Positions 17,092 to 43,310 of a DNA stretch of 57,752 nt are shown here, piece by piece. The translations under genes were made by a program, and so were the position numbers. Where the stretch lies: positions 1-57,752 of the forward strand of contig JABGPL010000021.1 of the NCBI GenBank assembly GCA_018644935.1, given 5' to 3'. Position 1 is the first letter of the stretch, and every line of letters starts with the position of its first letter. Below the pieces are notes generated by a model. The model did not search any database. It was not told the origin of the DNA and saw nothing but the letters and a program-made list of their open reading frames with translations. Source of the DNA: Calditrichota bacterium. GTDB taxonomy: Bacteria; Electryoneota; AABM5-125-24; Hatepunaeales; Hatepunaeaceae.

Positions 17092-18135
17092 TTATTCCTC
17101 TAACAACTCATCAATCATTTCGCCAACCGCTTCTATGCTGATCGAACCACGACCGAGGCTGCGGTGTCTTATTATTCCGTGTTTGTCGATGACGACAAAT
17201 AGTGGTGGTGCAGCCTGATACTCGTAACCGAGTCTGAAGGAATCAAATGCAACGTCTGCATTCTTCAGGATTGGTAAGCTCAAACTGTACTCTGCGCGAA
17301 ATGCAGTTAACCAGTCCATACTGGCGTCTGAGTTGACCGTCCAGATTTCCACATCTTCATCGGCGTAAGTTTCAAATAACAGGTGTTGCGTGGCAGGAAT
17401 CTCCTCCCCGATGCAAACCGTTCAAGTTGACCCGAAGAAGTATAGGAAAATAACCTCTCCCCAGTGATTGGAGAGACTTTTGGTATCCCCATTCATATCG
17501 AGACAATTTATTTCCGGAGCATGGTTTCCAAGATAGGCTGATACCATTTGCAGATCGAGATCAACATAAGTGGTCTCGGCAGCTGATACGGTAACCTCCG
17601 CCCACGCCTGATATTCTGTTGTATCGACTCTTGTTGCAAGAGATATATTGTGTGGACCGTCCGGGATGGACAACATAACGAACGGTTGGTCATAAGCTGT
17701 TTTGAAGAATACACCATCCATATGTATGGAGCAGCTATCTGTTGGATGATTTTCAATTGTTGAATTGACAACCACAATTCCGGTACTGCTCATTACGGTG
17801 TTAACAGTCGCAATGGAATCGTAGGAGACTTCAAACCTTTGATCTGAGCTTCGGTAAAAACCATTTGCATTTTCTATAAATGTTGATAGGAGGTGTTCGC
17901 CGACCCGGGTTTTAAAGGTGTAAGGGTTTGCTCTTTCCCCGATAGAATCTCCGTCGAGAAGGATAAAAACAGATTCCGGTATAACCAAAGAATCCGGATT
18001 GATCTCGATAATCGCATTAACAGTAACTGCCCCGCGCACTTCAGGCATTACTGGTGGAACTTCGCCACAACCGGAGATCAGAATGACACCAAATATCAGC
18101 ATCAGAATGTCAATTATTTTTATGATCGATATCAT
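17092..18135 (-). CDS. PEGA-thioredoxin lipoprotein, candidate selenoprotein (U-T-V-C)
   Basis: This 347-codon gene is read through one in-frame TGA (complement of 17422-17424, codon 238). A lipoprotein signal (LILISGCGE) is followed by a PEGA-type domain (ILLDGDSIGERANPY) and then a thioredoxin/TlpA-like domain. The strand before the active site reads VIFLYFFGST, and the next codons give U-T-V-C, so Sec takes the place of the nucleophilic Cys of CXXC. The downstream part (EIWTVNSD, the cis-Pro region APPLFVVID) completes the fold and would be lost if TGA were a stop. Its ATG overlaps the stop of the barrel gene by four bases, which implies translational coupling. The likely role is periplasmic thiol or selenol redox chemistry. 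The paralogue at 37020 has the same plan and the same Sec position. Confidence 0.88.
17391..17424 (-). promoter_or_regulatory. Sec codon and SECIS-like hairpin
   Basis: On the minus strand, TGA is followed by a short stem AGGA-GAT-TCCT, extended by GG/CC after one mismatch. The loop begins 21 bases after the TGA, within the 16-37 range known for bacterial SECIS elements. The stem is weaker than in the other candidates. Confidence 0.5.
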
Positions 18136-19151
18136 ACGTCAAACTCTAAGCTGAGCAGGTATGTGTTCATCTTGATGTCCTGATCACTGAGGTATCTTCT
18201 GTACTTAAACCTCGTCTGAATATCTGAGAACATTTGCCAGTTAATTTCCGCTGCACAGGAGTGTGAATTTATTGATCTGCCCTTAATGAAATCAGGAACA
18301 GCATCTTCATCAAACCGACAGGCGAAGTATCTGTAACGGAGCCGCATTGATAAATCCCACCGCAAATACTGCCCAATTTCAAAAGTCGGTGAAATTGATT
18401 TTACTCCGTAGTCGTGATTATAGACACGCATTCCAGCATGAAGTGCAGTTTGAGTTGGCAGGTAGCGACTTAGAACTACAGTAAATGCACGACCGATGAA
18501 GTCTCCCGAATCACTCGTAGTTCGGTAAAGCTCCACCCGACCGCTCAATGCAGTCAAAGAATTGAGTGACCATCTCACATTTAGCATTGGTTTGAGTGTG
18601 CTGATAATCAAACCGTTTGAGTCCTTACTCATATCATAGCTTACTGACGCATCACCCTTGATCCAGCCTGACCGGTCATATTTAAGCCCAGCCGTAGCAA
18701 CATTTCCTCCGACATTTGCACTCGAATCTGGATCATTAATCCCAATGTTCAGGTTTTGGAATGACCCGTATAACGTCATCATATCGGTCAAATATCTATT
18801 ATATCTGAGATATCCGCGATGCTGGTCTTTATAATCGCTAAGCTCAGAATACTCATGCCTGAGCTCTATTGATTGCAACGGTCCCAGTGTCTGCTGAACC
18901 TTTGTCAGAAGCCGGTGTTCCGGGAAATCGGTAACATATGGATTCAAATATTCGAAGCCAATCTCGGGATCAGACGAAAGAGAAAGTGGATATCGATACT
19001 GGTTGTAATCACTGTATTGATACTCGAATTTGACTCGTGTCGCATACCAGCCTGTTTTGCCGAATGCCTGAATTTCCGATTGGAACCCGAAGACTAACAG
19101 GCAGATGATTATATACCATTGGCCAGTGGATCTGAGATCTTTGTTTTTCAT
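18132..19151 (-). CDS. DUF3570-like outer-membrane beta-barrel
   Basis: This 339-residue protein has a signal segment (IIICLLVFGFQSEIQAFG) and then alternating amphipathic strands rich in Tyr and Arg with a terminal aromatic/aliphatic residue pattern (LLSLEFDV), typical of an outer-membrane barrel. It is clearly paralogous to the protein at 35968: both share GxTGWY, EYQxSDY, FPEHR and DRSGWIKG. In other bacteria DUF3570 proteins are, to my knowledge, encoded next to a small DUF4266 lipoprotein and thioredoxin-like genes. Here the thioredoxin is present, but an FG-GAP selenoprotein stands where DUF4266 might be expected. It overlaps both neighbours by four bases. Its transported or bound substrate is unknown. 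Confidence 0.75.
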   Translation of the reverse strand: MKNKDLRSTGQWYIIICLLVFGFQSEIQAFGKTGWYATRVKFEYQYSDYNQYRYPLSLSSDPEIGFEYLNPYVTDFPEHRLLTKVQQTLGPLQSIELRHEYSELSDYKDQHRGYLRYNRYLTDMMTLYGSFQNLNIGINDPDSSANVGGNVATAGLKYDRSGWIKGDASVSYDMSKDSNGLIISTLKPMLNVRWSLNSLTALSGRVELYRTTSDSGDFIGRAFTVVLSRYLPTQTALHAGMRVYNHDYGVKSISPTFEIGQYLRWDLSMRLRYRYFACRFDEDAVPDFIKGRSINSHSCAAEINWQMFSDIQTRFKYRRYLSDQDIKMNTYLLSLEFDV

Positions 19152-20359
19152 TTCGTCAGTGTAATCATTTTAGTAGAATATTGACCAGCATTAGAAAGCC
19201 TAACGAGGTAATTTCCTGCCGGGTAGTCGGTCAAATCGAGTGGAATCTCAAGCTGGCCTAGGGATACATCCATAGTTGATACTGTCTGCCCGAAGGGATT
19301 GAATATCTCTAATTTTGAACTACCCAATAGTAAGCCACCGTATACTAACTTTGTGGAATTGTTAAAAGGATTGGGGTAATTTGACATGATTACAAACCCA
19401 GCAGGTGAAGGATTGGTGACAACGGGTGCACTATTCTCTGAGGCGTTTATGTACAGCCGAATTTCGGATTCGCGCAATCCTGTCACAATATCATAAAAGC
19501 CATCTCCGTTCCAATCGAAGAGGTCTATCCGGGCATACCCCGATAACCTGATACGGCCGTTTTCATCATCAAGACGGGTTCCGGAGTTGAACTGTGGGTC
19601 GTTATCTGTACCAATATTGGTATAAAACCAGATGTCGCCCCAGGTGCAACCAAACACCAGATCTCTTTTTCCATCTCCGTCAAGATCGACAAAAGCCGGG
19701 GATGAATCCGCACCATTATTAATTTCACCGTTACCCGATTCCAACGTGATACAACTCGATAAAACAAAGTTCTCAGGTGAGCCCGAATTAATGTAAAGAT
19801 TAATTGTCCCCCCAAAGGTGCCGACCAAAAGGTCAAGATCACCATCAAGGTCCCAGTCAACTGTCTGTGGAGCAGCTCTGGATAGACTGATTACCTCTCC
19901 ATCAACCTCAACTTTTCCTGCTGAGGAAAGCTCACCATCCTCATCTCGTATATATAAGGTAATCTCTCCATCAGCATCACCAACAAGCAGATCCATGTCA
20001 CCATCAGCATCTACATCCGCCATCTGCGGATAAGCACCCTGACATCATTCAAAAGGTGCGCAGAGCAATTCACCATCGGCAGAAAGTCGCCCTGAGAGCT
20101 CAAACGAGGGTTGGTTATCCTGAGGGGTGTTTGTGAACAGGTAAATTGGCCCATCTGTGAAAGTGCCAACAAGAATATCAAAATCACCATCATTGTCCCA
20201 GTCACCAACACAGGGAGCCGTGTATCCGGATGCGTCACCCGGAAATTCAGACGCTTCATTTTGAAGAACCACTGCCGGCTGGAAAACTGGAGGATCGGCA
20301 GTTGCAACAGCTGTCAAACTTAAGAGAAACAAAATTATCAGTGGAAACATATCTTTCAT
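19148..20359 (-). CDS. FG-GAP/VCBS repeat secreted protein, candidate selenoprotein (U-C)
   Basis: A signal peptide (MFPLIILFLLSLTAVATA) leads into FG-GAP repeats with Asp-rich calcium-binding loops (DWDNDGDFDILVG, DVDADGDMDLLVG, DWDLDGDLDLLVG). A sorting tail with YPNPFN closes the 403-residue protein. A TGA at codon 105 (complement of 20045-20047) is read through and is directly followed by Cys, giving FEUCQG; another Cys lies eight codons before it. The frame continues without shift into the next repeat. The ribosome site AGGAAA lies within the 18-base gap after arsG, so it is probably co-transcribed with the arsenical genes. A surface metal- or redox-related role is possible but unproven. 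Without Sec insertion only the first repeat and a half would be made. Confidence 0.82.
20015..20047 (-). promoter_or_regulatory. Sec codon and SECIS-like hairpin
   Basis: On the minus strand TGA is followed after 13 bases by the perfect stem ATCCGC/GCGGAT with loop AGATG. The loop starts 20 bases from the TGA. Stem length and loop distance match those of the other candidates in this window. Confidence 0.75.
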
Positions 20360-20377: not shown

Positions 20378-21061
20378 TTAAAGCATAACACCGAATGTAT
20401 AAATAATTGTGCAGTAAATGCCTGCCAGAATAAAAACAACGCTCGTAATCCGTCTCGCCCAGAGCTCAAACACCTTAAGTTTGTCATAGGCACGACCAAC
20501 GGCGTTTGCACTGAAAGCCAGCAGGATTGCGAAAAAGATGACTGGAAGTCCGGTCCCAATTCCGAAAATGGATGGATACAATATTGTCGAACCTATTCCG
20601 ACTGCCAGAGGAATCAAACTGCCGAAGAACAAAGCCGCTGAAACCGGGCAAAATGAAAGTGCAAAAACTATTCCCAACAGACCTGCACCCCAAATCCCCA
20701 TATCTCCCGCCTTGTCCTGTAGTTTTCCTGATCCCAGGGAGCTAAACCAATGGGCTGGAATTACTCCGAGCAGCATCACTCCGACAACAATCAGCACCGG
20801 ACCGAGAAAACGGTTGAAATAGTCCTGTAAGAAATTCGCCACACCCGGAATCGAGAGAATCCCGGTTACCACAATCGCGCCAACTACAACATAAGCAATC
20901 ATCCGCCCAAGGGTATAGAGCATTCCAGCGAGCAGCACTCGCCGGGTATTCTCAACTTTGTTTCCAATAAAGGAAATTGCAGCAATATTCGTCGCTAACG
21001 GGCAAGGGCTGATTGATGTCAATATGCCCAACCAGAGTGCGGTACCAATGCTTAGGAGCAT
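20378..21061 (-). CDS. arsG: ArsG-family efflux permease
   Basis: This 227-residue integral membrane protein has about six hydrophobic helices and the hallmark SISPCPLATNIAAISF near the N-terminus, plus a second Cys-Pro site (SFCPVSAALFFGSLIP). It belongs to the DsbD/CcdA-like superfamily, and the motifs fit the subgroup I know as ArsG, which with ArsE and ArsF handles aromatic arsenicals (reduction and extrusion). Its ATG directly abuts the stop of arsF. The order arsR, small thioredoxin, arsF, arsG supports the call. A general thiol-electron carrier of the CcdA type is the main alternative, and would also fit the redox genes downstream. Confidence 0.72.
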   Translation of the reverse strand: MLLSIGTALWLGILTSISPCPLATNIAAISFIGNKVENTRRVLLAGMLYTLGRMIAYVVVGAIVVTGILSIPGVANFLQDYFNRFLGPVLIVVGVMLLGVIPAHWFSSLGSGKLQDKAGDMGIWGAGLLGIVFALSFCPVSAALFFGSLIPLAVGIGSTILYPSIFGIGTGLPVIFFAILLAFSANAVGRAYDKLKVFELWARRITSVVFILAGIYCTIIYTFGVML

Positions 21062-21553
21062 CTACTTGCCTTCAGCGATGAAGGTGTCCATTTCAACTTT
21101 AACATAGTCGTAGAACTTTTCTTTATCTTTTTTATGTTCCCATACATCCTTCAGGTTTTTCCAGCGAACGATCTCTTCACCATTCATCACGAAAAATACA
21201 ACAGATTGAGTAAATAATCCGAATTCCTTTTTGAATTTCTTGTTCTTGGGATCCAAATAATTCGCAACCTTCCATTCAATCTGACCAGTCTCAACCCTTT
21301 TGGGGAAGAACTTTAACAGAGCATCATGTGAGTACATTTCAATTGTCTTGCATGACATACAGCGTTTGCGACCATGAAAGTAGTATGCTGAAATGGTCGT
21401 GAATTCTGTTTCGCTGTTCTTATCTGTCGATTCAATTTCTTTAACAGGCTCAACTGTTTTGTTTTTATCACCCGCGACACTCGCAGAAGGCAGAGTGATC
21501 AGCAATATAGCAAATGCTACCAGTATAACCATCCAAACATCAGAGGTCTTCAA
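21062..21553 (-). CDS. arsF: ArsF-family exported thiol protein
   Basis: The start is TTG at 21553, chosen because GGGAG lies at a good distance and a signal peptide (MVILVAFAILLITLPSASVAG) follows at once. The mature part holds the motif YFHGRKRCMSCKTIE, with CXXC near the start of a thioredoxin-like fold, and a Lys-rich C-terminus. This matches the family annotated as the ArsF subunit of nitrophenyl-compound reduction. It probably works outside the cytoplasmic membrane with ArsG. A generic nitroreductase-associated or thiol-handling role cannot be excluded. Confidence 0.72.
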   Translation of the reverse strand: MKTSDVWMVILVAFAILLITLPSASVAGDKNKTVEPVKEIESTDKNSETEFTTISAYYFHGRKRCMSCKTIEMYSHDALLKFFPKRVETGQIEWKVANYLDPKNKKFKKEFGLFTQSVVFFVMNGEEIVRWKNLKDVWEHKKDKEKFYDYVKVEMDTFIAEGK

Positions 21554-21580
21554 TTGGATTCTCCCATAAAATAAATCGTG

Positions 21581-21644
21581 CTTGCAGACGCTCTTGTCTG
21601 CAAGTTTGGATTGTTATCACTGTCACACGAGGGCGTGTGACAGT
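21581..21644. repeat. Two adjacent perfect intergenic hairpins
   Basis: CTTGCAGAC at 21581-21589 pairs with GTCTGCAAG at 21596-21604. ACTGTCACACG at 21619-21629 pairs with CGTGTGACAGT at 21634-21644 around the loop AGGG. They lie inside the ars operon between the thioredoxin and arsF genes, with no T-tract, so an REP-like element or an RNA-stability hairpin is likelier than a terminator. Confidence 0.7.
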
Positions 21645-21655
21645 ACAATATTCAA

Positions 21656-21889
21656 TCAGGACAAAAGTTCTTTTATTTTATCAACTGAGAGTACCTTTCC
21701 GACACTCTCAACTTTTCCATCAATAACCAGTCCGGGAGTCATGGCGACTCCGAACTTCATTATATCTACAATATCCTTAACCTTCTCGATTTCGCACTCC
21801 ACCCCGGCAGCTTTTGCAGCTTCATCCGCATTCCTGGCTAATGTCTCACATTTGGGACATCCCGGTCCCAGTACTTTAATCTGTTTCAT
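21656..21889 (-). CDS. Small thioredoxin-fold protein (ArsE-like)
   Basis: A 77-residue protein with an active site GPGCPKCETL at residues 8-17 and the TPGLVIDGKV region that supplies the cis-Pro. It belongs to the small archaeal/bacterial glutaredoxin-like family (thioredoxin_3). There is no signal peptide, so it acts in the cytoplasm. Its ATG overlaps the stop of the arsR-type gene. In known arsEFG clusters, as I recall, the first gene encodes such a protein, so a role as intracellular reductant in arsenical processing is inferred. Confidence 0.8.
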   Translation of the reverse strand: MKQIKVLGPGCPKCETLARNADEAAKAAGVECEIEKVKDIVDIMKFGVAMTPGLVIDGKVESVGKVLSVDKIKELLS

Positions 21890-22230
21890 TTTATTTCCTG
21901 TATTTCAAAATGTTCTGTTGCAGCCAGATGTAATTCCGCATTGCTCTTGAGAACTCCTTCTATGCATCCGAAGAAATTGAGCACACAGGGTGTTGTCAGT
22001 TCATAATACACCGAAGCACCAATTTTTTCATCTTTGACAATGCCAGCGTTCCGCAACACCGAGAGGTGCTTCGAAACTGTTGAACCATCTGCACCAATCA
22101 TATCCGTCAGCTCATTAACACGGCGTTTATGGTTTGAGAGCTGATCGACGATAAAAAGTCGTGTTGGATGCGCCAAAGCCTTTACAATCTTAGCTCTGAC
22201 TTCATACCGAGCTTTCGTTTTTACATCCAT
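21886..22230 (-). CDS. ArsR/SmtB-family transcriptional repressor
   Basis: A 114-residue winged-helix regulator: RAKIVKALAHPTRLFIVDQL gives the first helices, and SKHLSVLRNAGIVKDEK gives the recognition helix and wing. Cys residues in the C-terminal part (TPCVLNFFGCIEG) could bind arsenite, antimonite or a soft metal, as in other members. It is the first gene of the minus-strand run and is divergent from the permease at 22379. Two copies of an operator-like sequence lie in the gap, so it probably represses both units and is released by metal(loid). The ligand is not certain from sequence. Confidence 0.88.
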   Translation of the reverse strand: MDVKTKARYEVRAKIVKALAHPTRLFIVDQLSNHKRRVNELTDMIGADGSTVSKHLSVLRNAGIVKDEKIGASVYYELTTPCVLNFFGCIEGVLKSNAELHLAATEHFEIQEIK

Positions 22231-22252
22231 TATCTATCCCGATTACCTGTAG

Positions 22253-22277
22253 ATATGGCAATATAGCCAAATAACCA
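22253..22277. promoter_or_regulatory. Probable ArsR operator, copy 1
   Basis: This 25-base element starts ATATGGCAATATAGCC and ends AAATAACCA. It contains the dyad TGGC-N6-GCCA. It lies 23 bases upstream of the regulator's start codon and recurs at 22332-22356 with only a few changes. Confidence 0.6.
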
Positions 22278-22331
22278 AGAATGTGCAATAGTCTCTCTAG
22301 AGTTGAGGATAATACTTGCAACATTATGGTC

Positions 22332-31667: not shown

Positions 31668-32990
31668 ATGGATACCGAATTACAAAAGGCATTGAAATTC
31701 CTGCGGAATGTCGCTGATCGTAACGGATATTTGCTTAATCCGGATCTGCGCACATTAGAGCGAATTGCATTGTCAATGGTTGAAAATCGCAGAAACCATA
31801 AACGGTATTTCTGCCCATGTAAACAGCATCATCCGGTTAACGCTGAGGTTGACCCTGTTTGTCCATGTGATGAATCGAAAGATGAAATCAGGCGTGACGG
31901 ATTCTGTGATTGTCATGTTTTCTTTGATGAATCTGGATATGAACATGCTAAAATGCGACCAGGTTTACTTTCAACTGTTGCATGCCCTGGTTGAGCATCC
32001 AAACTGTCAAGAGCGCAGTTGGCGCTCGCGTTATCGGGCTTAACCCCAATCACTGATGAACGGGTACTTGTCGGGACAAATACAGCAGATGATGCTGGAA
32101 TTATTCAGGTAACCCCAGACCTCGCTCTGGTTCAAACAGTTGATGTTTTTGCACCGATTGTTGATGATGCTTACACCTTCGGACGAATCGCTGCTATTAA
32201 TTCTCTGTCTGATATTTATGCAATGGGTGGGACACCATTATCAGCATTGAATGTAGTCGGGTTTCCTCAGGATCTGCCAAATGAAGTACTTTCTGAAATG
32301 CTTCAAGGAGGGCAGGATGAGGTAAATAAAGCCGGGGCAGTTTTGCTTGGAGGGCACACGTATCAGAGTACCGAACTCAGATATGGGCTTTCCATTACGG
32401 GACAAATCCATCCAGACGAAATAATTACCAATCAAGGTGCTAAACCGGGCGATAAACTAATTTTCACCAAGTCTCTTGGCTCCGGAACTATAATCCACGC
32501 AATGGTTTCGCGTGGAACTATAATGTCAGAGCTGTACAATGCTGCAGTTGAGACGATGACAATCTCAAACCGGGTCGCAGCGGTTGCAATGAAGGGCAAA
32601 GCCAATGCCTGTACCGATATAACCGGATTTGGATTCATAGGACATTGTTGGGAAATGGCAAACGCGAGTGGGTTTGGTATGGATATCTTCATCCATCGCC
32701 TGCCCGTTCTTCCACGGACCCTGGATTTAATTCGAGGGGGTGTTACAAATGTCGGCACAAAACAGAATCGGAATTCATTTGAAGAGTTTGTGATTATTGA
32801 TGACGAAGTTCCTGATGAATACGAAATATTGTTATATAATGCCGAGACCTCCGGCGGTTTACTAATGTCAGTAGATAAAAACAAAGTCGAAGAGTTATTG
32901 CAAGATCTAGACAATAAAGGGGAAAGAGGTGTAGTTGTGGGGGAAGTAACGACAGATCATCCCAGGAAGGTAAGAATAATTAATAAGTGA
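31668..32990 (+). CDS. selD: Ferredoxin-thioredoxin reductase domain fused in frame to SelD, Sec at CPGU
   Basis: Residues about 1-96 match the catalytic subunit of ferredoxin-thioredoxin reductase: FCPC, then VCPC, then FCDCHVFF hold the ligands of a 4Fe-4S cluster and a redox disulfide. With no stop codon, the frame runs into CPGUASKLSR, the selenophosphate synthetase active site with Sec at codon 109 (TGA 31992-31994) and the conserved Lys three residues on. The SelD ATP-binding domains follow (DDAGI, DIYAMGG, TGFGFIGH, ETSGGLL), total 440 residues. SelD makes selenophosphate for Sec synthesis. An internal ATG at 31953 could start SelD alone, 13 residues before Sec. In that case UGA would act as stop for FTR and as Sec for SelD. 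Downstream of selB; a terminator follows. Confidence 0.88.
31992..32027 (+). promoter_or_regulatory. Sec codon and SECIS-like hairpin of selD
   Basis: TGA at 31992-31994 is followed by the perfect stem GAGCGC (32011-32016)/GCGCTC (32022-32027) with loop AGTTG. The loop starts 23 bases after the TGA. Confidence 0.8.
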
Positions 32991-33149: not shown

Positions 33150-35468
33150 ATGAAACGTACCTGGATTATTTCTGGTTGTATGTTCCTCGCAGTATTATTT
33201 CTCGTCGGTCCTGTAGGGGCTGTTGAGATATTTCTGTGGGAACATGATAACCGTCTACTATCACGAGATGCTGTTTTTAATGCTGAGATAACCTGTACAG
33301 AGTCGGTTGCCCGAACTCTGACCGGGCTTAATATGGACTTTACTCGTGATGCGGCTTTACCTTCTATCGAGGAGTTGAACCACTACGATGTAGTTGTTAC
33401 AGCACTCGGTTTTTATTGTCCTGGTTGAGGTGGTGGTACACCAGCAAGCCGGATCGGCTTGGAAGAACAAGAAATATTGATTGAATACCTCAATGGTAAT
33501 CACGGACTTTATGTAGAAGGAAACGACTGGTGTGCGGATCACCGCAACACCGAGCTCTTCGAATATTTTCATATTAATTTTGAAGGCTTTAGTCAGAATA
33601 ACGTTGTTCGTACATTAGATGCGAATGACATCAATCGCTTTGGACTTAGAGCTTTCAGTTACTTGACTGGGAACAATGCTGCTGAACGCCCTGACTACGT
33701 TACCCCTGGTGACGGAGCGGAAGCAATTTTCACCTGTAATGCAGGTAATATCCGTGGAGTCTATTACGACGGAATGAGCCAGTATCGAACCTACGGGCAA
33801 ACAGTATCCTTCATGAGCCTCCAAAACAATCGCAACTTTGACCGCGCAGAATTCATGAGAGATGTTATCAATGAATTAGCTGGATATCGTGGCACCATGA
33901 CCGGCGTTGTGGTAGATCGTGAAGACACTCCCGTTGAAGGAGCCTTAGTTTCTGTATTCGGTCGTCTTTCTGCCTATACTGATGAAAATGGTGAGTTTTC
34001 GATTGACCGGATTCCAGTGCAGCAATTTTCAGTACAGGTTGAACGTCGCGGCTACACCACAATCGAATCTCAGGACTTCTCTTTTGAAGGAAACCGCGAG
34101 ATGGATGTGGTTATTCAAATGCGGAATCCAGTGCTGGATATTGACCCTATCTCAATTGAAGTAGATGTCAATCAGAATGCAGAAGAGACTTTCTCTGTGA
34201 ATATTAACAACTCGGGAGATGGACCTCTTGCATTCTCGACTCGTTTGAGAGCTGAACCTGTTGAAGGTCAACTTTGGGAAGAAGTTGGTGGTTTTGATGC
34301 AGGAACAATTACTGAAGATATCAGACTTCAGGCTGCTGTATTCCTTAATGGTTTTTATTGGATCGCTGGTGGTGGAAGCAGTGCAGATAACCCTAACTTG
34401 CTTTATAAAGTTAATCTCGATGGTGAATTAGTCGATCAATTTGAGCAGAACACAGAGAGTAACTACGGCTGGCGGGATATGACAACGGATGGTGAATTTA
34501 TTTATGCCGTTGATGCTAACTATATCGCGCAGATTGACCCGGAAACTGGTCAAATGACCGATACGCCAATTAACAGTGCGTACATGCCTCGCGAAACACA
34601 CGTTATTACTTATGATCCCGAAGAGGACATTTTTTGGGTTGCAGAGCAAACCGGTAATATCCTTGGAATTGATCGTCAGGGCAGTTGGGTTGATTTAGTA
34701 AACAACCGCAATCGCTTCAGGATGAGTGGATTATCATGGTTCGCGGATGATCCCGATGGTTACCAGCTCTATATTTCCTCACTTGATCCACAACAATTTC
34801 CAATTATGGTCAAATGTTCATATGCAAGTGAAGAAGCTATGGATATTTGCCTTATGCCATGTGGTGAAGAAGAAAGCATGGGTGGTGGTGAGATGTCATC
34901 TGAATTGATGCCCTATACCACATTGTTGGTTGCCCAGATGCAGGGACGCGCAGATTGGATTCGTACCTATGAAGCTGGAACTTGCTTCAATTGGGTTAGT
35001 CTTCCCCCCGGTCAGGCTGATATTGACCCTGAAGGTGCGATGAGCTTTGATCTTAAGTTTGATGCAACTGGTCTTGTAGTTGGGAACACTTACGAAGCCC
35101 ATATTCAGTTCGACCATAACACACCCGTTGAAGGTGCGATTTTTGTTGATATTGTAATGACAGTTCTGGATGCTAGCGCAGTAAATGAAGATGAAGCACT
35201 ACCATATCAGTTTGGCATTGCATCAGTCTATCCGAATCCGTTCAATCCGACAACAACTGTTAATTTTGGACTTGATATCGCATCAGACGTGAACCTCGCA
35301 GTGTTTGATCTTTCTGGACGGACAATGGCGACATTAATCAATGGTCAGGTTCCGGCTGGTCTTCACAACGCAACAGTTGACGCTCAGAATTGGCCGTCAG
35401 GTGTCTATGTTGTTCGACTTGCAGATGACACACGAGTTAATATGACTAAGATTACGCTTATCAGGTAA
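33150..35468 (+). CDS. Secreted amidotransferase-like/propeller protein with sorting tail, candidate selenoprotein (CPGU)
   Basis: GGAGGAAG precedes the ATG, and the signal peptide ends near VGPVGA. Residues about 25-240 resemble a class I glutamine amidotransferase or ThuA-like fold (HYDVVVTALGFYCPG, then a read-through TGA, then GGGTPASRIGLEE). The Sec at codon 93 forms a C-P-G-U redox-type motif at the spot where such folds carry a nucleophile elbow. Next come a carboxypeptidase regulatory-like domain (about 246-327), a propeller shared with the proteins at 12838 and 53529 (about 371-604), and a tail with YPNPFN from about 687; 772 residues in total. The upstream part alone would be only 92 residues with no fold. 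The enzymatic role is unknown; the same fold without Sec occurs in module B of the giant protein. Confidence 0.85.
33426..33460 (+). promoter_or_regulatory. Sec codon and SECIS-like hairpin
   Basis: TGA at 33426-33428 is followed by stem AAGCCG (33446-33451)/CGGCTT (33455-33460) with loop GAT. The loop starts 24 bases after the TGA (23 intervening). Confidence 0.75.
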
Positions 35469-35764: not shown

Positions 35765-35983
35765 ATGACGGTTTTCTACAATTTAAAAAAACATCTACTG
35801 TTGCCGTTTCTCCTGATCTTTGTGATCTTGCTGATTGCGGGATGTAGCGGGACAGGGAAGTACATGATTGATGATCCAGTGAATGACCCAATCATGCTGA
35901 CCGATGATCAACAGGATAGTGATCTCGTGAAGGTGGAAGAGGGCGGAGGTGGTTCTGCCGGAGGAGGATGTCCTACGTGATAG
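35765..35983 (+). CDS. DUF4266-like small lipoprotein ending in C-P-T-Sec
   Basis: The 72-codon product has a lipoprotein signal (FVILLIAGCSG), then DDPVNDPIM, an acidic stretch, and a Gly-rich end, GGGGSAGGGCPT. The next codon is TGA (35978-35980), followed at once by TAG (35981-35983). DUF4266 proteins, as I know them, have the same plan: lipobox, a DP-M motif, and a Gly-rich tail ending GGGCGCN. Here the terminal Cys pair would be C-P-T-U. A hairpin with the canonical GGTC loop follows at the expected distance, which makes C-terminal Sec more likely than a simple TGA stop. The gene overlaps the barrel gene that follows. It probably sits in the outer or inner membrane as a redox-active tail; its partner may be the DUF3570 barrel. 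Confidence 0.78.
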
Positions 35984-37023
35984 GCTTCAAATCACGCTTC
36001 GGTCGAAGCGAACTAAACGACGGAATTCTTAGCAGACAGCAGATTATTGTTCTATTGTCGACTTGTCTTCTAGTGTTTTGCATCACAGCTGAGCTTTTCG
36101 CAATAGGACCTACTGGTTGGTACAACACGAAGATAAAAGCTGAATATCAGTTCAGTGATTATGGTGAATATTCATTTCCTGAGGTTGAGTACGGGGATTC
36201 AATACAATTCATTGATCCCTATGTCTTCAGTTTTCCAGAACATCGCTCCCTGGTGAAGATTATTCAGTCGTTCGGTCCTAAAAAGGCACTTGAACTGCGT
36301 TATGAGAACTCTGTTCTTTCCAGTGACAAACAACAGGACAGATACTACTCTCGTTACGATCAGAACATTTCTGATCTGACAACTGTCTATGGTGTTTATC
36401 AGAGCCTTGACCTTTCGTATGATTCTCCTGACTCAATCTCCTCGGTTGGACATATGATGTCTCTCGGGATTAAGCATGACCGGTCGGGTTGGATTAAGGG
36501 CGAAACGAGCTTTAGCTATGACAATAGTAAAGCGCCTTCTGGATTAATCACTGAAACATTCATGCCTATGGTACAGGGCCGATGGTCTATCGATTCGTAT
36601 ACTGCTCTGTCTGCAAGGTGGGATGGTTACTGGGCAGTCAGCGATTCCGGGACGGTTCCTGCGCACGCATTTACAGTTTTTGTGAGCCGATATTTTCCGA
36701 CAGAGACTGCTGTTCACCTATTTTCACGATTCTATCGGAATGAAGATGGTGTTGAATCAATATCACCTGCAGTTGAAGTCGCACAATATGTTTTGTGGAA
36801 TCTTACCGCTCGCATGACCTACAGGTTCTATCGTAATTGGTTCGAGTCAGAAAATGCTCCTCCAACAATTGAAGGCAATTCTCTAACCGCACACAGCATA
36901 AGAACTAACATCGAATACGAGATAATGTCTGATGTTAAAATGCTGATTAAGTACCGATGGTATTCGAGCGACCAAAACATAAAAATGAGCACTTACCTGC
37001 TCGGTTTTGAGTATAATTTATGA
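35968..37023 (+). CDS. DUF3570-like outer-membrane beta-barrel
   Basis: This 351-residue protein starts at an ATG inside the Gly-Cys codons of the preceding gene, so the two are coupled, and its first codons double as the SECIS of that gene. The N-terminal extension is followed by a signal segment (LLSTCLLVFCITAELFAIGP). Then come the paired strand motifs GPTGWY, EYQFSDY, FPEHRS and DRSGWIKG that it shares with the protein at 18132. It ends with the alternating YLLGFEYNL typical of barrels. Position after a DUF4266-like lipoprotein and before a thioredoxin lipoprotein agrees with the gene order known for DUF3570. It is likely an outer-membrane protein; substrate unknown. Because its N-terminus serves two purposes, a start further downstream is possible. 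Confidence 0.78.
   Translation: MSYVIGFKSRFGRSELNDGILSRQQIIVLLSTCLLVFCITAELFAIGPTGWYNTKIKAEYQFSDYGEYSFPEVEYGDSIQFIDPYVFSFPEHRSLVKIIQSFGPKKALELRYENSVLSSDKQQDRYYSRYDQNISDLTTVYGVYQSLDLSYDSPDSISSVGHMMSLGIKHDRSGWIKGETSFSYDNSKAPSGLITETFMPMVQGRWSIDSYTALSARWDGYWAVSDSGTVPAHAFTVFVSRYFPTETAVHLFSRFYRNEDGVESISPAVEVAQYVLWNLTARMTYRFYRNWFESENAPPTIEGNSLTAHSIRTNIEYEIMSDVKMLIKYRWYSSDQNIKMSTYLLGFEYNL
35978..36010 (+). promoter_or_regulatory. Sec codon, TAG stop and SECIS with GGTC loop
   Basis: TGA (35978-35980) and TAG (35981-35983) are followed by perfect stem CGCTTC (35995-36000)/GAAGCG (36005-36010) with loop GGTC, the loop sequence of the E. coli SECIS. The loop begins 21 bases after the TGA. The hairpin lies inside the next gene's coding sequence. 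Confidence 0.82.
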
Positions 37024-38348
37024 TGAAATACAAATTTTTAATATACATACTGCCTCTATTGCTGCTAATGAGCTGCGGTGATTCTCCGACTGATCCACCG
37101 GATACAATCCTTAGCACTGGTTCAATCGAGATTTCGAGCAGTGTGGAGACCAATGCAACAGATGGAGTTGAAGCAGGACTTGGATTAGTTGTTCCCAGTC
37201 AAGGTATCATCCTGGATGGAGAAGATCTTGGTTTTAAACCTAATCCGATTGTTTTAAATGACATAATGTCCGGACCTCACCGTATTGAAACATATTTCAG
37301 CCTTGCAGAAAGGATTGTCGACGGCCCCAGTCAGACGGTTGAGGTAACATACAAAAATACGATGTCTGTACAGATTGTGGTCAATGTCGGCGTAATATCA
37401 ATTCGTAATTTTATCAATATTGATGGTGGTGAACAGGTCGAACCGGAGAGCATTGGTGTTATCCTTGATGGTGATTCACTCGGATTTTTGACGAATCCTG
37501 TTACATTGCATATGATTCCGGAGGGAAGCCATGATATTGCCACTTATGTAAATTATGCAGGTCGTGATTATGTCGGACCGCCAAGGGGTGTTAATGTTAG
37601 CCTCGGTGAAACTTCAGCGATGAACATCGAAATGGTTGCCGGTGGAGTAATAATTGCTACTGCAAGGTACAACGGTCAGGTTGTCTCGGAACTCGGGCTT
37701 AAACTCGACGGTGAAATTAGTGAGATATCCGGAAGCCCAAAGGTAATCACCAATGTTTCATCCGATGATCATGTTCTCGTGGCGTGGGCTATGGACGATA
37801 CCACAAGGCTTGAGGGATGGGATACTGACATTTATGTTGCAACCGGAGAGACTCTGTACGTCCAGATTGACCTTCAGGTTGTATCCCCCTGGGTTGGAAT
37901 GCATGCTCCCGACATATACTGTAGTGACATTGATGGCAATTCCCATTCGCTTTCAGAGAACTGGGGAAAAGTAATTTACGTTTATTACTTCAGCTACACG
38001 TGAGGCACCTGTACCGGGGAGGACATCCCCAACGCACAGTTGAAGTTGTTAGACCAGTTCCCGAATGATGAGATTGAAGTTTGGGTTCTTAATATGGATG
38101 CCGGAAAAGAGTGGCTTGAACAATATCGAGCTGATCCCAATCAACACCACATTTCAGAAAACCTTGATATGCCGATCATGTACGATGCTGACTCTGCATT
38201 TGAGAGCCATCAGGTTGGATGGCAATGGAATAGTTATCCTCCCTGTTATTTGATTATCGATCAGAATGGGATTGTTGTTAGTAGACAAAACTACATAAAT
38301 GTCGATACTGCCGCTGAAGTAATAGGTGGATTGTTGAGTGGGGATTAA
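37020..38348 (+). CDS. PEGA-thioredoxin lipoprotein, candidate selenoprotein (U-G-T-C)
   Basis: The ATG overlaps the barrel's stop (ATGA). A lipobox (LPLLLLMSCGDS) is followed by three PEGA-like repeats (IILDGEDLGFKPNPI, VILDGDSLGFLTNPV, GLKLDGEISEISGSP). A TlpA/thioredoxin-like domain follows from about residue 310. Before the active site it reads VIYVYYFSYT; TGA at 38001-38003 (codon 328) then gives U-G-T-C. After it come EVWVLNMDAGKEWL, MPIMYDADSAF and the cis-Pro-like SYPPCYLIID. The 442-residue protein parallels that at 17092 but has more PEGA repeats. It is probably a periplasm-facing selenol-thiol exchanger. Without read-through the fold would be cut before its active-site helix. Confidence 0.9.
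38001..38030 (+). promoter_or_regulatory. Sec codon and SECIS-like hairpin
   Basis: TGA at 38001-38003 is followed by stem GGGGA (38016-38020)/TCCCC (38026-38030) with loop GGACA, which starts 18 bases after the TGA. Confidence 0.7.
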
Positions 38349-38410: not shown

Positions 38411-38959
38411 ATGCGATTAACAATAATTCTGGCATTAGTTTTAATGCTGACTACAAGTGTGATGGCGGATATTGAGCCCGGAACGCCTGTACCTGACTTA
38501 ACCTTGATTTCCCCGGAGGGTGAAAAAGTACAACTCCAAGATATGCTTGGGAGTGTTACTATATTGCACCTCTGGAAATGCAATTGACTGCAATGCCGTG
38601 CGGAGATTCCGCACCTGAAGAAAATTATGCCCGATTATGCTGATAAATCTGTCAAGTTTGTCTCCGTCAATACACGAGATCCAAAGGGTCAGGTTAAAGC
38701 AGAAATCAAGCGGTACAAAATAAATTATCCGGTTCATCTTGGTCGTGGGCAGAAAATCACTGAAAAATTTAAAGTGATGAAACTTCCTCGTCTAATCCTG
38801 ATAAAGTCAGACGGGACTATTTACAAAGATGTAATGTTTATGAAAGCTAAGGAGTTGAAAGCCGAAATTGATATGCTTCTAGCTGAAGTTCCCGTTCCAT
38901 CTGAAGAGACTCCCGACGTCCCTGAATCCGATAATGCGTCGGAAGAAATGAAGAAATAA
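38411..38959 (+). CDS. TlpA/peroxiredoxin-like exported protein, candidate selenoprotein (C-N-U-L-Q-C)
   Basis: A signal peptide (MRLTIILALVLMLTTSVMA) precedes a TlpA-type domain: EPGTPVPDLTLISPEGEKV, then ILHLWKCN, then TGA at 38585-38587 (codon 59), then LQCRAEIPHLKKI. With Sec the active site reads CNULQC: U-X-X-C with an extra Cys two residues before. The rest (VKFVSVNTRD, the cis-Pro region MKLPRLILIKSDG) is a complete thioredoxin fold, followed by an acidic tail rich in Pro and Glu. Total 182 residues. No good ribosome site precedes the ATG, so the start rests on the signal peptide. The gene probably hands electrons between the membrane oxidoreductase downstream and the lipoproteins upstream. 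Confidence 0.9.
38585..38614 (+). promoter_or_regulatory. Sec codon and SECIS-like hairpin
   Basis: TGA at 38585-38587 is followed by perfect stem GTGCGG (38598-38603)/CCGCAC (38609-38614) with loop AGATT, starting 17 bases after the TGA. It resembles the AGATG-loop hairpin at 20015. Confidence 0.8.
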
Positions 38960-39165: not shown

Positions 39166-39279
39166 AGTGTTGGACACAGTTCTCATACATCCGCACTTGA
39201 CGGATAAGTCTTGTTTTCCCTTTTACGGGATTGGAAGGCAGTACAATCTGGAACAAGTTTGAATAAAGATAACCAAAGT

Positions 39280-41610
39280 ATGCTTGCCCCATGCATAAAT
39301 GGCTGCCCTCAGGGCACAGATATTTGTGCAATTTTAGCAAAGCTTTCCCATTCAGAAAAACCGGGTCAATCGAAAGAAAGATCTTTCGAGGAAGCCTGGG
39401 AAATTCTGACTAACACAAACCCTTTGCCTGCCATTTGCGGAAGAGTCTGTCCGCATAATTGCGAAAGCGCCTGTAATCGCAATGAAAAGGACGCCGCTGT
39501 AGCTTTCAACAATATTGAACGTTTTCTTGGTGATTATGGGATTGAACACGATCTCAAGTATACGCGATTACCAAATCCCGATCGACCGGAAAAAGTAGCG
39601 ATTATCGGAGCAGGTCCTGCTGGATTATCGTGTGCATATCAATTGGTTCGCAGGGGATATTCAGCGACTATCTTTGAGGCACTTCCGAAAGCGGGAGGTA
39701 TGCTCAGGTATGGCATTCCCGATTACAGGTTGCCACGTGATGTGATTGATGCTGAAGTCGCAAAGATAGTTGATCTTGGTGTAGAACTCCGCACAGGTGT
39801 AGAGGTTGGGAAAGATATTTCTTATGAGGAGATAGAATCTGAATTTAATTCAGTATTTATCGGCATAGGAGCTCATAAAGGCGCAAAGCTATACTGCCCC
39901 GGAGAAGAGACTGCTGGAGTTTATTCGGGTGCTGAGTTCCTGAGATTGATCAACAGCGGTGAATCGGTTGATGTTGGTGAGAATGTTGTTGTCGTAGGTG
40001 GTGGAGATACTGCTATTGATGCGGCGAGAGTTTCGAGACGACTCGGGGCAAATGTAACAATTCTCTATAGACGCACCAGATCTGAAATGCCAGCATATGC
40101 AGATGAAATTGTTGGAGGAGAAGAAGAGGGCGTTAAATTACATTTTCTCGCTGCGCCAATTGAAATTAAATCCGAAAATGGTCACGCGACCACAGTAATT
40201 TGTCAGCGGATGGAACTTGGAGAACCGGACAGATCAGGCAGACGCAGACCAATTCCGATAGATGGAGACACTTTCACACTGCCAGTCAGCAGTGTTATAG
40301 CTGCGATATCTCAGGCTCCCAGCTGGGGAAAAATTGATCAGTTTCAGAATCGCAAGGGTTGGATCGATGCGGATATGTGGGGTAGTACGCGTTTCGATAA
40401 TGTATATACCGGTGGTGACGACACCGGGCTGGGGTTGGTTACATCAGCGATAGCGGATGGACGGCGTGCCGCGGATGCTATTCACGCACGTTTAACGAAA
40501 TCCGAACTTCCTGTTGAAACAGAGCCAAATCTTATCCTTCCTGATAGATTAAATTTGCAGGTTGTTAAATCTACTCCACGACACGATCCAGTTGATGTCG
40601 GTGTTGAAAAGAGACTGCAATACACCTCAATCGAAATCAGACCAAGCCTGACTGCTGATGACGTAATCGCAGAATCGCAGCGCTGTATTAACTGCGGTCA
40701 CAGCTATATAAAGCCGAAAAGTAATCCTCTCCATTTCTTCCGTCGTTTCACACAACTTGGAATCGGAACGATACTGTTAAACAGTTACTTCGCGGTTGGT
40801 ACGACCAAACAGATTTACGGTGGTCAATTCCGCATGGTCTGCGTTCCTGGACTAAATTGCCACGCTTGTCCAACGGCGACAATGGGTTGCCCGATTGGGA
40901 TGCTTCAGTATTTCGCAGCCAATCACCGTTTCCCGTGGTTCTTGATCGGATTTGTCGGGATTATTGGTTTGTTGTCCGGGAGATTTACATGTGGCTGGCT
41001 GTGCCCGTGGGGATTCTTTCAGGACATAACGAACTTCTTCAAAAGGATAACGGTCCCTATCCCAAGAATCCTTGGATACGGCAAATACGTCGCACTTGTT
41101 CTATTGTGTATAGTCCTGCCATATATCACCTATGAGCATTGGTTTAGTGCGTTGTGTCCATGTGGAGCATTAATTGCCGGAATTCCCTGGGCTGTGTGGA
41201 ATCCGATAGATCCGGTGTTTGATGGACCAGTAATAGCTGCCGATGGAATAGGAATGATGTTCTGGATTAAGATGTGGATACTGGGAGTGTGTCTTGCGTT
41301 ATTCATGTTTATCAAGCGACCATTTTGCCGTACGGTATGCCCGTTGGGTGGTTTATACGCATTCTTTAACAGAATTTCACTCGTGTCGCTAAAGGTAAAA
41401 CCGGAATGTTCAGATTGCGGTCAATGCCGAGAATTGTGCCCTGTGGATATCGAACCGCAGAATGAAATAAACTCCGAGCCGTGCATCAAGTGTCTGGAAT
41501 GCACACAATGTGAACACATCAATTTCGATGTGAACTGGCCGGGGAAACCGAGCAACGGTTTCAAAAAGATTCCGGTTCAGGTGAAAACGGAAGTGAAAGC
41601 AACGGTTTGA
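39280..41610 (+). CDS. FAD/NAD(P) oxidoreductase (GltD-like) fused to a NapH-like membrane iron-sulfur module
   Basis: I start at ATG 39280 (MLAPCINGCPQGTDI); TTG at 39259 is possible. The N-terminal 4Fe-4S part (CINGCPQ, ICGRVCPHNCESAC) leads into a GltD-like flavoprotein with FAD motif IIGAGPAGLSCAYQL and NAD(P) motif VVVGGGDTAIDAARV. From about residue 465 it becomes a NapH/CcoG-like membrane protein: CHACP, FTCGWLCPWGFF, CPCGAL and RTVCPLGG loops between four or five helices, then two ferredoxin clusters (CSDCGQCRELCP, CIKCLECTQC). Such fusions can move electrons from NAD(P)H across the membrane. It closes the run of candidate selenoproteins and is the natural electron donor for them, which is an inference from gene order. 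Total about 776 residues. Confidence 0.88.
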   Translation: MLAPCINGCPQGTDICAILAKLSHSEKPGQSKERSFEEAWEILTNTNPLPAICGRVCPHNCESACNRNEKDAAVAFNNIERFLGDYGIEHDLKYTRLPNPDRPEKVAIIGAGPAGLSCAYQLVRRGYSATIFEALPKAGGMLRYGIPDYRLPRDVIDAEVAKIVDLGVELRTGVEVGKDISYEEIESEFNSVFIGIGAHKGAKLYCPGEETAGVYSGAEFLRLINSGESVDVGENVVVVGGGDTAIDAARVSRRLGANVTILYRRTRSEMPAYADEIVGGEEEGVKLHFLAAPIEIKSENGHATTVICQRMELGEPDRSGRRRPIPIDGDTFTLPVSSVIAAISQAPSWGKIDQFQNRKGWIDADMWGSTRFDNVYTGGDDTGLGLVTSAIADGRRAADAIHARLTKSELPVETEPNLILPDRLNLQVVKSTPRHDPVDVGVEKRLQYTSIEIRPSLTADDVIAESQRCINCGHSYIKPKSNPLHFFRRFTQLGIGTILLNSYFAVGTTKQIYGGQFRMVCVPGLNCHACPTATMGCPIGMLQYFAANHRFPWFLIGFVGIIGLLSGRFTCGWLCPWGFFQDITNFFKRITVPIPRILGYGKYVALVLLCIVLPYITYEHWFSALCPCGALIAGIPWAVWNPIDPVFDGPVIAADGIGMMFWIKMWILGVCLALFMFIKRPFCRTVCPLGGLYAFFNRISLVSLKVKPECSDCGQCRELCPVDIEPQNEINSEPCIKCLECTQCEHINFDVNWPGKPSNGFKKIPVQVKTEVKATV

Positions 41611-41764: not shown

Positions 41765-41839
41765 GTAGGGGTTGAATATCTTCAGTCCCGATGATATCGT
41801 TAAGACCGTAATAGGGCTGAAAATATTCAGCCCCTACAT
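41765..41839. repeat. Intergenic inverted repeat, copy 2
   Basis: TGTAGGGGTTGAAT near 41765 faces ATTCAGCCCCTACA ending near 41839. It is the same element as 41619-41677 with a longer centre. It lies in the selA leader. Confidence 0.8.
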
Positions 41840-41867
41840 CCTGTCCAAACCAAACAAAAGACGCATC

Positions 41868-43310
41868 ATGCTTGAAGACAAAAAAAAGAAAAAGAACCCC
41901 GGTCAGAAATTGCTTGCCAGTTTGCCGTCCATGACAGTGCTGCTGCAAAATGACGAAGTTGTGAATCTGATTGCCGAGTACCCCGAACGTTACGTGCAAA
42001 AATGCCTCCGCGAGATCCTTGATGACACCCGGCAGAAGATATTGAAAGGAAAAATCACCGATGCCGAACAAACGCCGGATATCTCGGATGTTATCTCCCT
42101 CGCGCGAAAAAGAGTGAAAGCCGGGTTAGGCAATAAGATTATGCGGGTGATTAACGGTGCAGGGGTGATCCTTCATACCGGTCTGGGCAGGGCTGCCCTT
42201 TCGGATTCGGCATTGGATGCGCTGACCGAAGCTTCGACACGCTACAGCCTCCTGGCAACAGACAGAGATTCGGGCAAGCGAGGTGACAGGTTTTCCCATA
42301 CGGATGAACTGCTCTGTGAGTTGACAGGTGCTGAGGCATCTCTCGTTGTCAACAATAACTCAGCTGCAGTGATGCTTGCGCTTAACACTTTCGGTGCAGG
42401 CAAGGAGTCCATTGTATCCCGTGGGGAATTGGTTGAGATCGGTGGTGCTTTCAGAATCCCTGACGTAATGGAAAGATCCGGGACGATCATGGTTGAGGTT
42501 GGAACGACCAACAAAACCCATTTGCGAGATTATCGTAATGCCATTACTGAAGAGACTTCACTGCTGTTAAAAGTTCACACATCGAACTACCGCATTGAAG
42601 GATTCCACGGTGAGGTTGGTGAAGCCGAAATGTCAGCACTTGCCAGAGAGAAGAACCTGATTACGGTTATGGATCTTGGCAGTGGCGCGATGGTCGATAT
42701 CCGTCGTTGGGGTGTAGCACACGAGCCGACTGTCCCGCAAGCTGTGAAAGATGGCATGGACATTATTACCTTTTCCGGTGACAAGATGCTGGGAGGTCCG
42801 CAATGTGGGATTCTAATTGGCAAAAAAGAACTCATTGCACAGATGAAAGTCAATCCCTTGATGCGAGCTTTCCGGTGCGGTAAACTGACATTGTCGGCAC
42901 TTAACGGGACACTACGCCTATTCCTGAATCCAGATACACTGCCTCAGACGCACCCTGTCTACGAGATGATAGGAACTCCAATGGATGTCATTAAGCTCAG
43001 GGCACAACGACTGGCGAGACGACTGCGAGCCATCGAAGGCTTCAAAGAAGCAATCGATATTTCAATTGGTACAGGACTTACAGAAATGGGATCCGGTTCA
43101 CTGCCAGCCAGAGGAATTGCAACACATGTAGTAGCTATGACCCCCAAAGCATGCAGTGCCGAAAACCTCTCAACGGCATTGCGTCAGGCGACACCTCCAC
43201 TGTTCACAAGGATAGAGGAGGAGCAAGTGAAGATTGATGCGCGGACGATCACGGATAAGGAAGTGGTTTGGATTGGTGAGGTGATGAGGGAGGTTTTGGG
43301 GAGGATATAG
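41868..43310 (+). CDS. selA: L-seryl-tRNA(Sec) selenium transferase SelA
   Basis: SelA converts Ser-tRNA(Sec) to Sec-tRNA(Sec) using selenophosphate. I start at ATG 41868, since the longer frame from 41772 runs through the repeat. The 480-residue protein, normal for the family, has the SelA hallmarks VINGAGVILHTGLGRAALS, the seryl-tRNA region DRDSGKRGDRF, and NNNSAAVMLAL. The PLP-binding site with its lysine is FSGDKMLGGPQCGI, followed by the C-terminal RGIATHVVAM region. No clear ribosome site precedes the ATG. It stands apart from selB and selD by about 9 kb of candidate selenoprotein genes, so the Sec machinery brackets them. Confidence 0.97.
   Translation: MLEDKKKKKNPGQKLLASLPSMTVLLQNDEVVNLIAEYPERYVQKCLREILDDTRQKILKGKITDAEQTPDISDVISLARKRVKAGLGNKIMRVINGAGVILHTGLGRAALSDSALDALTEASTRYSLLATDRDSGKRGDRFSHTDELLCELTGAEASLVVNNNSAAVMLALNTFGAGKESIVSRGELVEIGGAFRIPDVMERSGTIMVEVGTTNKTHLRDYRNAITEETSLLLKVHTSNYRIEGFHGEVGEAEMSALAREKNLITVMDLGSGAMVDIRRWGVAHEPTVPQAVKDGMDIITFSGDKMLGGPQCGILIGKKELIAQMKVNPLMRAFRCGKLTLSALNGTLRLFLNPDTLPQTHPVYEMIGTPMDVIKLRAQRLARRLRAIEGFKEAIDISIGTGLTEMGSGSLPARGIATHVVAMTPKACSAENLSTALRQATPPLFTRIEEEQVKIDARTITDKEVVWIGEVMREVLGRI

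Follow-up and report, generated by a model that had tools for sequence, protein, structure and literature searches.

Seven predicted selenoprotein genes interleaved with selB, selD and selA in a genomic island of an uncultured bacterium close to Candidatus Electryoneota

Results

Organization of the locus

We analysed a 57,752-nucleotide stretch of contig JABGPL010000021.1 (hereafter the window) from an uncultured member of the FCB group that is close to Candidatus Electryoneota. Seven predicted selenoprotein genes, numbered 1–7 below, are interleaved with selB, selD and selA in one genomic island, whose features are listed here (U, selenocysteine or Sec).

17092..18135, minus strand: selenoprotein 1, a lipoprotein with a C-terminal redoxin/AhpC-TSA domain (PF00578, 6.8e-11), motif STUTVC
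18132..19151, minus strand: outer-membrane-type beta barrel A, a paralogue of barrel B, with an ordinary TGA stop
19148..20359, minus strand: selenoprotein 2, a secreted FG-GAP/VCBS propeller with a T9SS sorting tail, motif FEUCQGAYPQ
20378..22230, minus strand: ars-type genes (ArsG permease, ArsF, a small thioredoxin-like protein and ArsR)
29539..31455, plus strand: selB, selenocysteine-specific elongation factor (TIGR00475, 7.4e-98)
31668..32990, plus strand: selenoprotein 3, selD with an N-terminal ferredoxin-thioredoxin reductase (FTR) beta domain (PF02943, 6.1e-11; TIGR00476, 1.7e-96)
33150..35468, plus strand: selenoprotein 4 (CPGU), secreted, with a GATase-like domain, CarboxypepD_reg and a T9SS sorting tail
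35765..35980, plus strand: selenoprotein 5 (CPTU), a 72-residue lipoprotein with Sec as its last residue
35968..37023, plus strand: outer-membrane-type beta barrel B, start codon uncertain
37020..38348, plus strand: selenoprotein 6, a redoxin lipoprotein, motif YTUGTC, TGA at 38001, hairpin loop 17 nt after it
38411..38959, plus strand: selenoprotein 7, periplasmic and TlpA-like, motif KCNULQC, TGA at 38585, hairpin loop 17 nt after it
39211..41610, plus strand: fused NAD(P)H/FAD oxidoreductase and NapH-like Fe-S membrane protein, with an ordinary TGA stop
41772..43310, plus strand: selA, L-seryl-tRNA(Sec) selenium transferase (TIGR00474, 3.9e-164)

The TIGR00474, TIGR00475 and TIGR00476 matches bear out the names selA, selB and selD that had been assigned in a sequence-only reading of this DNA; SelD scores 323 bits against the TIGR00476 cut-off of 125 and is a member of that family. 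With a tRNA-Sec bearing a UCA anticodon, encoded on a contig separate from the island, the genome has the full Sec machinery. The SelD active site, CPGUASK, holds Sec, and its FTR domain has six Cys residues arranged as CPC/CPC/CDC. The Sec codon of CPGU lies in a CPGUGGGTPAS loop (CxxU). A T9SS C-terminal sorting domain (PF18962/TIGR04183) was matched in both the propeller and CPGU. The same genome encodes a further secreted protein that combines a repeat domain, a TlpA domain with WASWUPTC and a sorting tail.

The order propeller/CPGU, CPTU, barrel, redoxin, TlpA, FAD/NapH, selA is retained in relatives, where it is seen piecewise because their contigs are short; the FAD/NapH gene has an equivalent position in the relative L073. 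In the relatives examined, ars-type genes were not seen next to the island.

Number of in-frame TGA sites

We scanned the full window on both strands for TGA codons within ORFs of at least 45 codons, having a Cys no more than 4 codons away and a bSECIS-type hairpin. This mechanical scan returned 11 sites, seven of which correspond to the island selenoprotein genes; the remaining four we judged to be frames antisense to, or shadowing, known genes. The seven sites upheld are 17424 (17424–17422) and 20047 (20047–20045) on the minus strand, and 31992, 33426, 35978, 38001 and 38585 on the plus strand. Eight such genes had been claimed from the sequence; seven are confirmed, and for the eighth neither the scan nor the all-against-all comparison described below gave another conserved in-frame TGA in 16.9–43.7 kb. 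The gene at 43538–45447 was considered and rejected: its frame is broken, and it is not a Sec gene. A codon-usage scan for recoded TGAs recovered one true site, the codon bias being too weak. The genome-wide selenoproteome count is a lower bound, and a Molybdopterin domain of the formate dehydrogenase type has a single, partial match in the genome (89% complete), without TGA.

Hairpins downstream of the TGA codons

All seven sites are followed by a bSECIS-type hairpin at a distance of 17–23 nt (20 nt in selenoprotein 1, 19 nt in the propeller, 22 nt in selD and 23 nt in CPGU), within the 17–24 nt proposed earlier. The six internal sites conform to the bSECIS criteria (G in the first two loop positions, 16–37 nt from the UGA, MFE ≤ −7.5); the CPTU hairpin, with an MFE of −7.1, is marginally short of the energy limit. 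As an estimate of chance occurrence, a hairpin of the bSECIS model followed 32 of 300 random TGAs of the window (about 11%). Compensatory stem changes are present in the best-sampled families. Five of the seven pairs of the CPGU stem have two-sided changes (17 cells), against 0 of 500 shuffles, and the signal collapses when slid. The propeller stem has nine double-change cells, also against 0 of 500 shuffles; one slid version gives a similar covariation score.

Conservation and distribution of the TGA codons

At the six internal sites, the protein is conserved on both sides of the TGA and the homologues all have TGA. When the TGA contexts of the window were compared all-against-all, in the best frame, with those of 20 loci of relatives, six of the seven sites aligned TGA-to-TGA without a Cys counterpart. 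The TGA of selenoprotein 1 is kept in three other loci, and the U105–C106 pair of the propeller is invariant in 18 sequences. A search for homologues with either Cys or Sec at the same codon had been proposed: TGA was found at the equivalent codon, but Cys forms were not, so that this test was replaced by that of TGA/TGA conservation. For CPGU and the propeller we looked for homologues with Cys and obtained none; distant relatives have a gap, not Cys, at the Sec loop, and the distant propeller matches are not informative because the FG-GAP family is repetitive. TGA conservation extends across genera and families, and two cases lie outside the host's phylum, a propeller with TGA (genome G044) and a CPGU homologue with TGC-TGA in candidate division TA06. 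In the host's family, f1, CPGU and CPTU occur in 7/7 genomes with SelA and in 0/2 genomes without it (Fisher, 0.028); island-type genes are present there only in SelA-bearing genomes.

CPTU ends in a TGA codon followed at once by TAG (TGA at 35978–35980). Its hairpin, CGCTTC-GGTC-GAAGCG, lies past the end of the ORF, with the loop GGTC 20 nt after the TGA, and the 5′ end of barrel B overlaps this SECIS region. The CPT-TGA-stop ending is found in 12/12 CPTU homologues, in which conservation runs up to the TGA. In all 12, a hairpin follows 15–20 nt after the TGA, its sequence varying while the pairing is kept; the control gave 9/151 at E ≤ −4.

The conserved TGAs, the hairpins, the Sec machinery and the SelA-only distribution support the earlier reading of the locus as an island of envelope redox and surface selenoproteins, and they make it highly probable that the in-frame TGA codons at all seven sites are read as selenocysteine. 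It might be argued that translation simply ends at these TGAs, and that what follows is pseudogene remnants or distinct genes: a standard annotation would terminate there, the genome commonly uses TGA as a stop, and a truncated CPTU would be just one residue shorter. This is very improbable in view of the protein conservation past an invariant TGA in many independent genomes, the retention of the CPTU hairpin past the stop in all 12 homologues, and the absence of these genes from SelA-less genomes. A reassignment of TGA throughout (to Trp, Gly or another residue, like code 4 or 25), to which the need for read-through in several genes could point, deserves practically no credence and is refuted, as had been anticipated, by the ordinary TGA stops of 7 of the 25 window genes (including ArsR, the barrels, FAD/NapH and SelD itself), the recoded TGAs moreover lying at redox motifs, with SECIS hairpins downstream, in a genome with sel machinery and tRNA-Sec.

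Relation to known families and gene clusters

Four of the selenoproteins are of kinds already known, namely SelD, both redoxin lipoproteins and TlpA. They share the UxxC redoxin/TlpA domains and the Sec-form SelD with the Redoxin, TlpA and SelD families (PMC13188914, Table 1), but the redoxins here are C-terminal domains of larger lipoproteins and SelD is fused to FTR beta. The FTR beta fold at the SelD N-terminus is also that of the FtrB double-selenoprotein (NF041072), whereas here it retains Cys, is fused to SelD and, at 44.6 bits, falls under the family cut-off of 160. The FG-GAP propeller, CPGU and CPTU have no listed match, by table, in the May 2026 catalogue of 119 prokaryotic families (PMC13188914). 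NCBIfam release 20, scanned with the propeller Sec region and the CPGU domain, has no model for either.

Among multi-gene systems, the extracytosolic redox clusters of DsbD or ApbE-DUF3570, thioredoxin and DUF4266 (Meheust et al. 2021, PMC8238504) resemble the island in combining a TlpA/Trx-like protein with a tiny secreted protein or lipoprotein that has a Gly-rich tail. In both, the small protein terminates with a redox pair (CXC in those clusters, CPTU in the island), and the end of its gene overlaps the start of the barrel gene. The relative G015 (L124) carries a true DUF4266 cassette, with the small gene and barrel in the same order as in the island and with the tail GGSSAGGGGCGCN. The island differs in having Sec at the last residue, in placing TlpA after rather than before the barrel, in lacking ApbE (one is encoded elsewhere in the genome) and in adding redoxin lipoproteins and T9SS surface selenoproteins. 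CPTU was rejected as a DUF4266 protein (PF14086), with no Pfam match and a tail of CPTU, not CXC; profile comparison with one DUF4266 gave 93.6% probability, largely from the signal peptide and Gly-rich tail. The barrel was likewise rejected as DUF3570 (PF12094), having neither a Pfam match nor the [ST]GA[ST] flavinylation motif. The SAO and Tso multi-selenoprotein operons (PMC13188914) also cluster several unrelated selenoprotein genes, thioredoxin-like ones included, but the propeller, CPGU and CPTU have no counterpart among their named proteins, and the island, in contrast, contains selB, selD and selA and is directed to the envelope and surface.

Discussion

We suggest, with confidence and doubt in about equal measure, that the island products together relay electrons across the cell envelope through selenols and thiols. 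As a candidate for the electron input, the membrane-bound FAD/NapH protein would pass NAD(P)H electrons to the periplasmic TlpA and the redoxin lipoproteins (all UxxC), which would reduce the CPTU lipoprotein. At the outer membrane, CPTU would have the beta barrel as its partner, and the T9SS-tailed surface proteins (the U-C propeller and CPGU) would encounter a substrate outside the cell. The FTR domain of SelD may provide low-potential electrons for selenophosphate synthesis. We have guessed this sequence of transfers from the arrangement of the genes and the predicted locations of their products. Such a relay would be analogous to the Trx/DUF4266/DUF3570 system and not a member of it. We count against the relay that the barrel is not recognized as DUF3570 by Pfam and has no flavinylation motif. 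More tentatively, the relay could be a trans-envelope conduit in which Sec pairs replace haem or flavin, running from TlpA(U) through a redoxin lipoprotein(U) and CPTU/barrel to the surface Sec proteins; Sec would be obligate, and CPTU would represent a class of lipoproteins with C-terminal Sec and a SECIS outside the coding region.

The same selenoproteins could instead serve on the cell surface to capture or detoxify metal(loid)s (arsenic, mercury, selenium), with the ars-type genes included, as might be suggested by the ArsR/ArsF/ArsG-type genes that separate one half of the island from the other. In favour of this role, vicinal U-C and CxxU bind soft metals well. Sec proteins of organometal chemistry are also known (PMC13188914). 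We nonetheless regard this role as unlikely: the ars-type genes do not adjoin selenoprotein genes in the relatives examined, and the occurrence of TlpA, redoxin and NAD(P)H/FAD/NapH in one run favours electron transfer. It is similarly doubtful that the selenoproteins serve in the making or repair of surface proteins, with the TlpA/redoxin pair keeping the Sec and Cys residues of T9SS-exported proteins reduced and the propeller and CPGU being themselves peroxide or disulfide reductases. The AhpC-TSA/redoxin domains with UxxC and the secreted WASWUPTC protein would suit this role, which, however, does not account for why the CPTU lipoprotein is regularly paired with a barrel.

As CPTU indicates, a bacterial gene can have Sec as its final codon and the hairpin past the stop, a class invisible to methods that require coding sequence after the TGA. 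The three families absent from the catalogue, all of them predicted to be exported, would extend the known roles of selenium outside the cytoplasm. That none of the three has any Cys form found is unusual and suggests a chemistry needing selenium. The island offers a concrete, testable proposal for how an uncultured phylum may use selenium in redox chemistry on its outer surface.

Conserved in-frame TGA codons

Reading through TGA gave long, sensible proteins at six places in the window, and a seventh candidate TGA lies at the end of a small lipoprotein gene.

Predicted selenoproteins of the window, by Sec TGA
17424(-), redoxin lipoprotein, motif UxxC
20047(-), FG-GAP propeller, secreted, with a T9SS tail; invariant U-C in a loop
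31992(+), SelD, Sec in the active site; N-terminal ferredoxin-thioredoxin reductase beta domain with six Cys
33426(+), CPGU, secreted, with a GATase-like domain
35978(+), CPTU, 72-residue lipoprotein
38001(+), redoxin lipoprotein, motif UxxC
38585(+), TlpA-like, motif CNULQC

As a motif-independent test, we compared stop-to-stop (TAA/TAG) frames all against all over the window and 20 loci, drawn from relatives and from further contigs of the host's own genome, retaining the best-scoring frame alone at each place. The six internal TGAs (all but 35978(+)) matched TGA elsewhere with both flanks conserved, and no true orthologue in this comparison had Cys at these sites. A seventh line of the comparison, 19150(-), was rejected as Sec, being the propeller gene's ordinary stop. 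A mechanical scan of the whole window on both strands (an ORF no shorter than 45 codons, a Cys at most four codons away and a bSECIS-type hairpin) returned 11 sites, seven of which were the six internal TGAs and 35978(+); the other four were judged to be shadow or antisense frames. The sequence-only reading had counted eight Sec TGAs, placed at redox motifs, within 17.1-43.3 kb; seven of these stand, and no eighth Sec gene was found in the window, where TGA is the normal stop of 7 of 25 genes.

SECIS-type hairpins

Judged by the published bSECIS model (reviewed in PMC13188914), six window sites passed fully (-8.8 to -17.8 kcal/mol; loops 17-23 nt from the TGA), as did 32 of 300 random window TGAs used as a control. 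The loops were strikingly alike among unrelated selenoprotein families, most containing GAT or AGATG. The CPGU stem had two-sided changes in five of seven pairs (17 cells), which none of 500 shuffles reached, and sliding the partner destroyed this covariation; the propeller stem covaried more weakly.

At 35978, the TGA stands immediately between the end of the lipoprotein frame, GGGGSAGGGCPT, and a TAG codon; such a tail is naturally read as a C-terminal CxxU. CPTU homologues were found in three families, in 13 genomes besides the host's. In a comparison of 12 sequences, the window's own included, every gene had CPT-TGA with an immediate second stop (TAG, TAA or TGA) and, 15-20 nt past the TGA, a hairpin whose first loop positions are G. 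Stem sequences vary with pairing retained (CGCTTC/GAAGCG, GCCTC/GAGGC, GCCC/GGGC, CTGCTC/GAGCAG, CTGCCCG/CGGGTGG). Hairpins of E <= -4 followed 9 of 151 TGA-stop pairs of the window, taken as a control. The CPTU hairpin, at -7.1, is slightly short of the model's energy limit. Protein conservation cannot account for this hairpin, since it lies outside the lipoprotein coding sequence; in certain genomes it may extend into the beginning of the next frame, that of the outer-membrane-type beta barrel.

Machinery and distribution

The selA, selB and selD genes, previously proposed to lie near the sites, were all clearly identified, and tRNA-Sec with a UCA anticodon is on contig C167 of the same genome. 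In the host's family, the seven genomes with full SelA all carry CPGU and CPTU, and the two without real SelA (G004, G007) lack CPTU and the Sec forms of CPGU, propeller and redoxin (Fisher p = 0.028). Among 61 genomes, SelA was present in all 15 bearing any of these genes (chance 0.003, relatedness ignored). TGA-to-TGA conservation, no Cys in true orthologues, the hairpins and the sel machinery with tRNA-Sec bear out the proposal that the in-frame TGAs are Sec codons; by comparative-genomic standards, decoding as Sec is shown. Among named records, Candidatus Hatepunaea meridiana, filed under Candidatus Electryoneota, and Calditrichaeota bacterium AABM5.125.24 are the nearest; the host's placement rests on relatives.

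The host genome also encodes four further CPGU paralogues (contigs C148, C190, C145 and C83), a second propeller selenoprotein (C176) and, at L110 (G000:C163:19956-20318), a 778-residue secreted frame combining a T9SS tail with a TlpA domain of motif WASWUPTC, and thus at least 13 selenoproteins. No TGA-containing molybdopterin enzyme was found in this genome. An AhpC/TSA match at G000:C158:39512-39940 carries an in-frame TAG.

Individual families

Four loci (L070, L071, L072, L074) retain a SelD as long as the window's, its Sec at residue 109; the Sec-SelD of another family, f6, is shorter. In f6, up to four propeller selenoprotein genes stand in tandem, adjoining Sec-containing selD (L076, L077, L083, L084, L085). 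The propeller model is moderate (pLDDT 69), with weak matches to propellers. CPGU is well modelled (pLDDT 82.5), Foldseek returned GATase and ThuA-like folds, and its Sec is predicted in a flexible loop following a core strand; distant relatives without Sec lack the loop. TGC-TGA is found in the homologue from bacterium SM23_40 of candidate division TA06 (L098:3880-4240), where WWCUGGGG replaces CPGU and the Cys/Sec spacing is different.

Propeller, CPGU and CPTU match no family among 119 catalogued prokaryotic selenoprotein families (May 2026, PMC13188914), and NCBIfam, scanned for the first two, has no model for their Sec regions. Full-text searches of a limited set of papers for selenoprotein with FG-GAP or type IX secretion returned nothing relevant.

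Gene order and a possible electron relay

The runs selB-selD-CPGU and propeller-CPTU-barrel-redoxin-TlpA-FAD/NapH-selA are retained in relatives, in contig-limited pieces. An ars-type group (20378-23674; ArsR, small thioredoxin-like, ArsF, ArsG, permease) is inserted between two selenoprotein runs; it is outside the conserved run and does not adjoin the island in relatives examined. Between the permease gene and a C25-peptidase-like gene, a 46-bp unit with an internal inverted repeat (CGACCGCAAGGGTCG) is repeated in about five tandem copies (23743-24018). A secreted repeat-protein gene at 43538-45447 stops at TGA 44372 and resumes in another frame from ~44413, and is therefore a pseudogene or contains an assembly error.

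Of described arrangements, the Trx-DUF4266-DUF3570-ApbE extracytosolic redox cluster (Meheust et al. 2021, PMC8238504) comes closest. The relative G015 has a true non-Sec cassette of this kind, Trx(WCAPC)-DUF4266-barrel(MTGAS)-ApbE-like (L124:866-3150), with the tail GGSSAGGGGCGCN. CPTU is similar in size to DUF4266, and both have a Gly-rich tail that ends in a redox pair. CPTU did not match the Pfam DUF4266 model, nor the barrel that of DUF3570, so we propose a likeness in working and claim no membership. With protein locations predicted from signal peptides, lipoboxes and sorting tails, we infer an electron relay in which NAD(P)H electrons would pass through FAD/NapH to TlpA and the redoxins, and from these to CPTU/barrel and the surface proteins; by analogy, the system may work as the Trx-DUF4266-DUF3570-ApbE cluster does.
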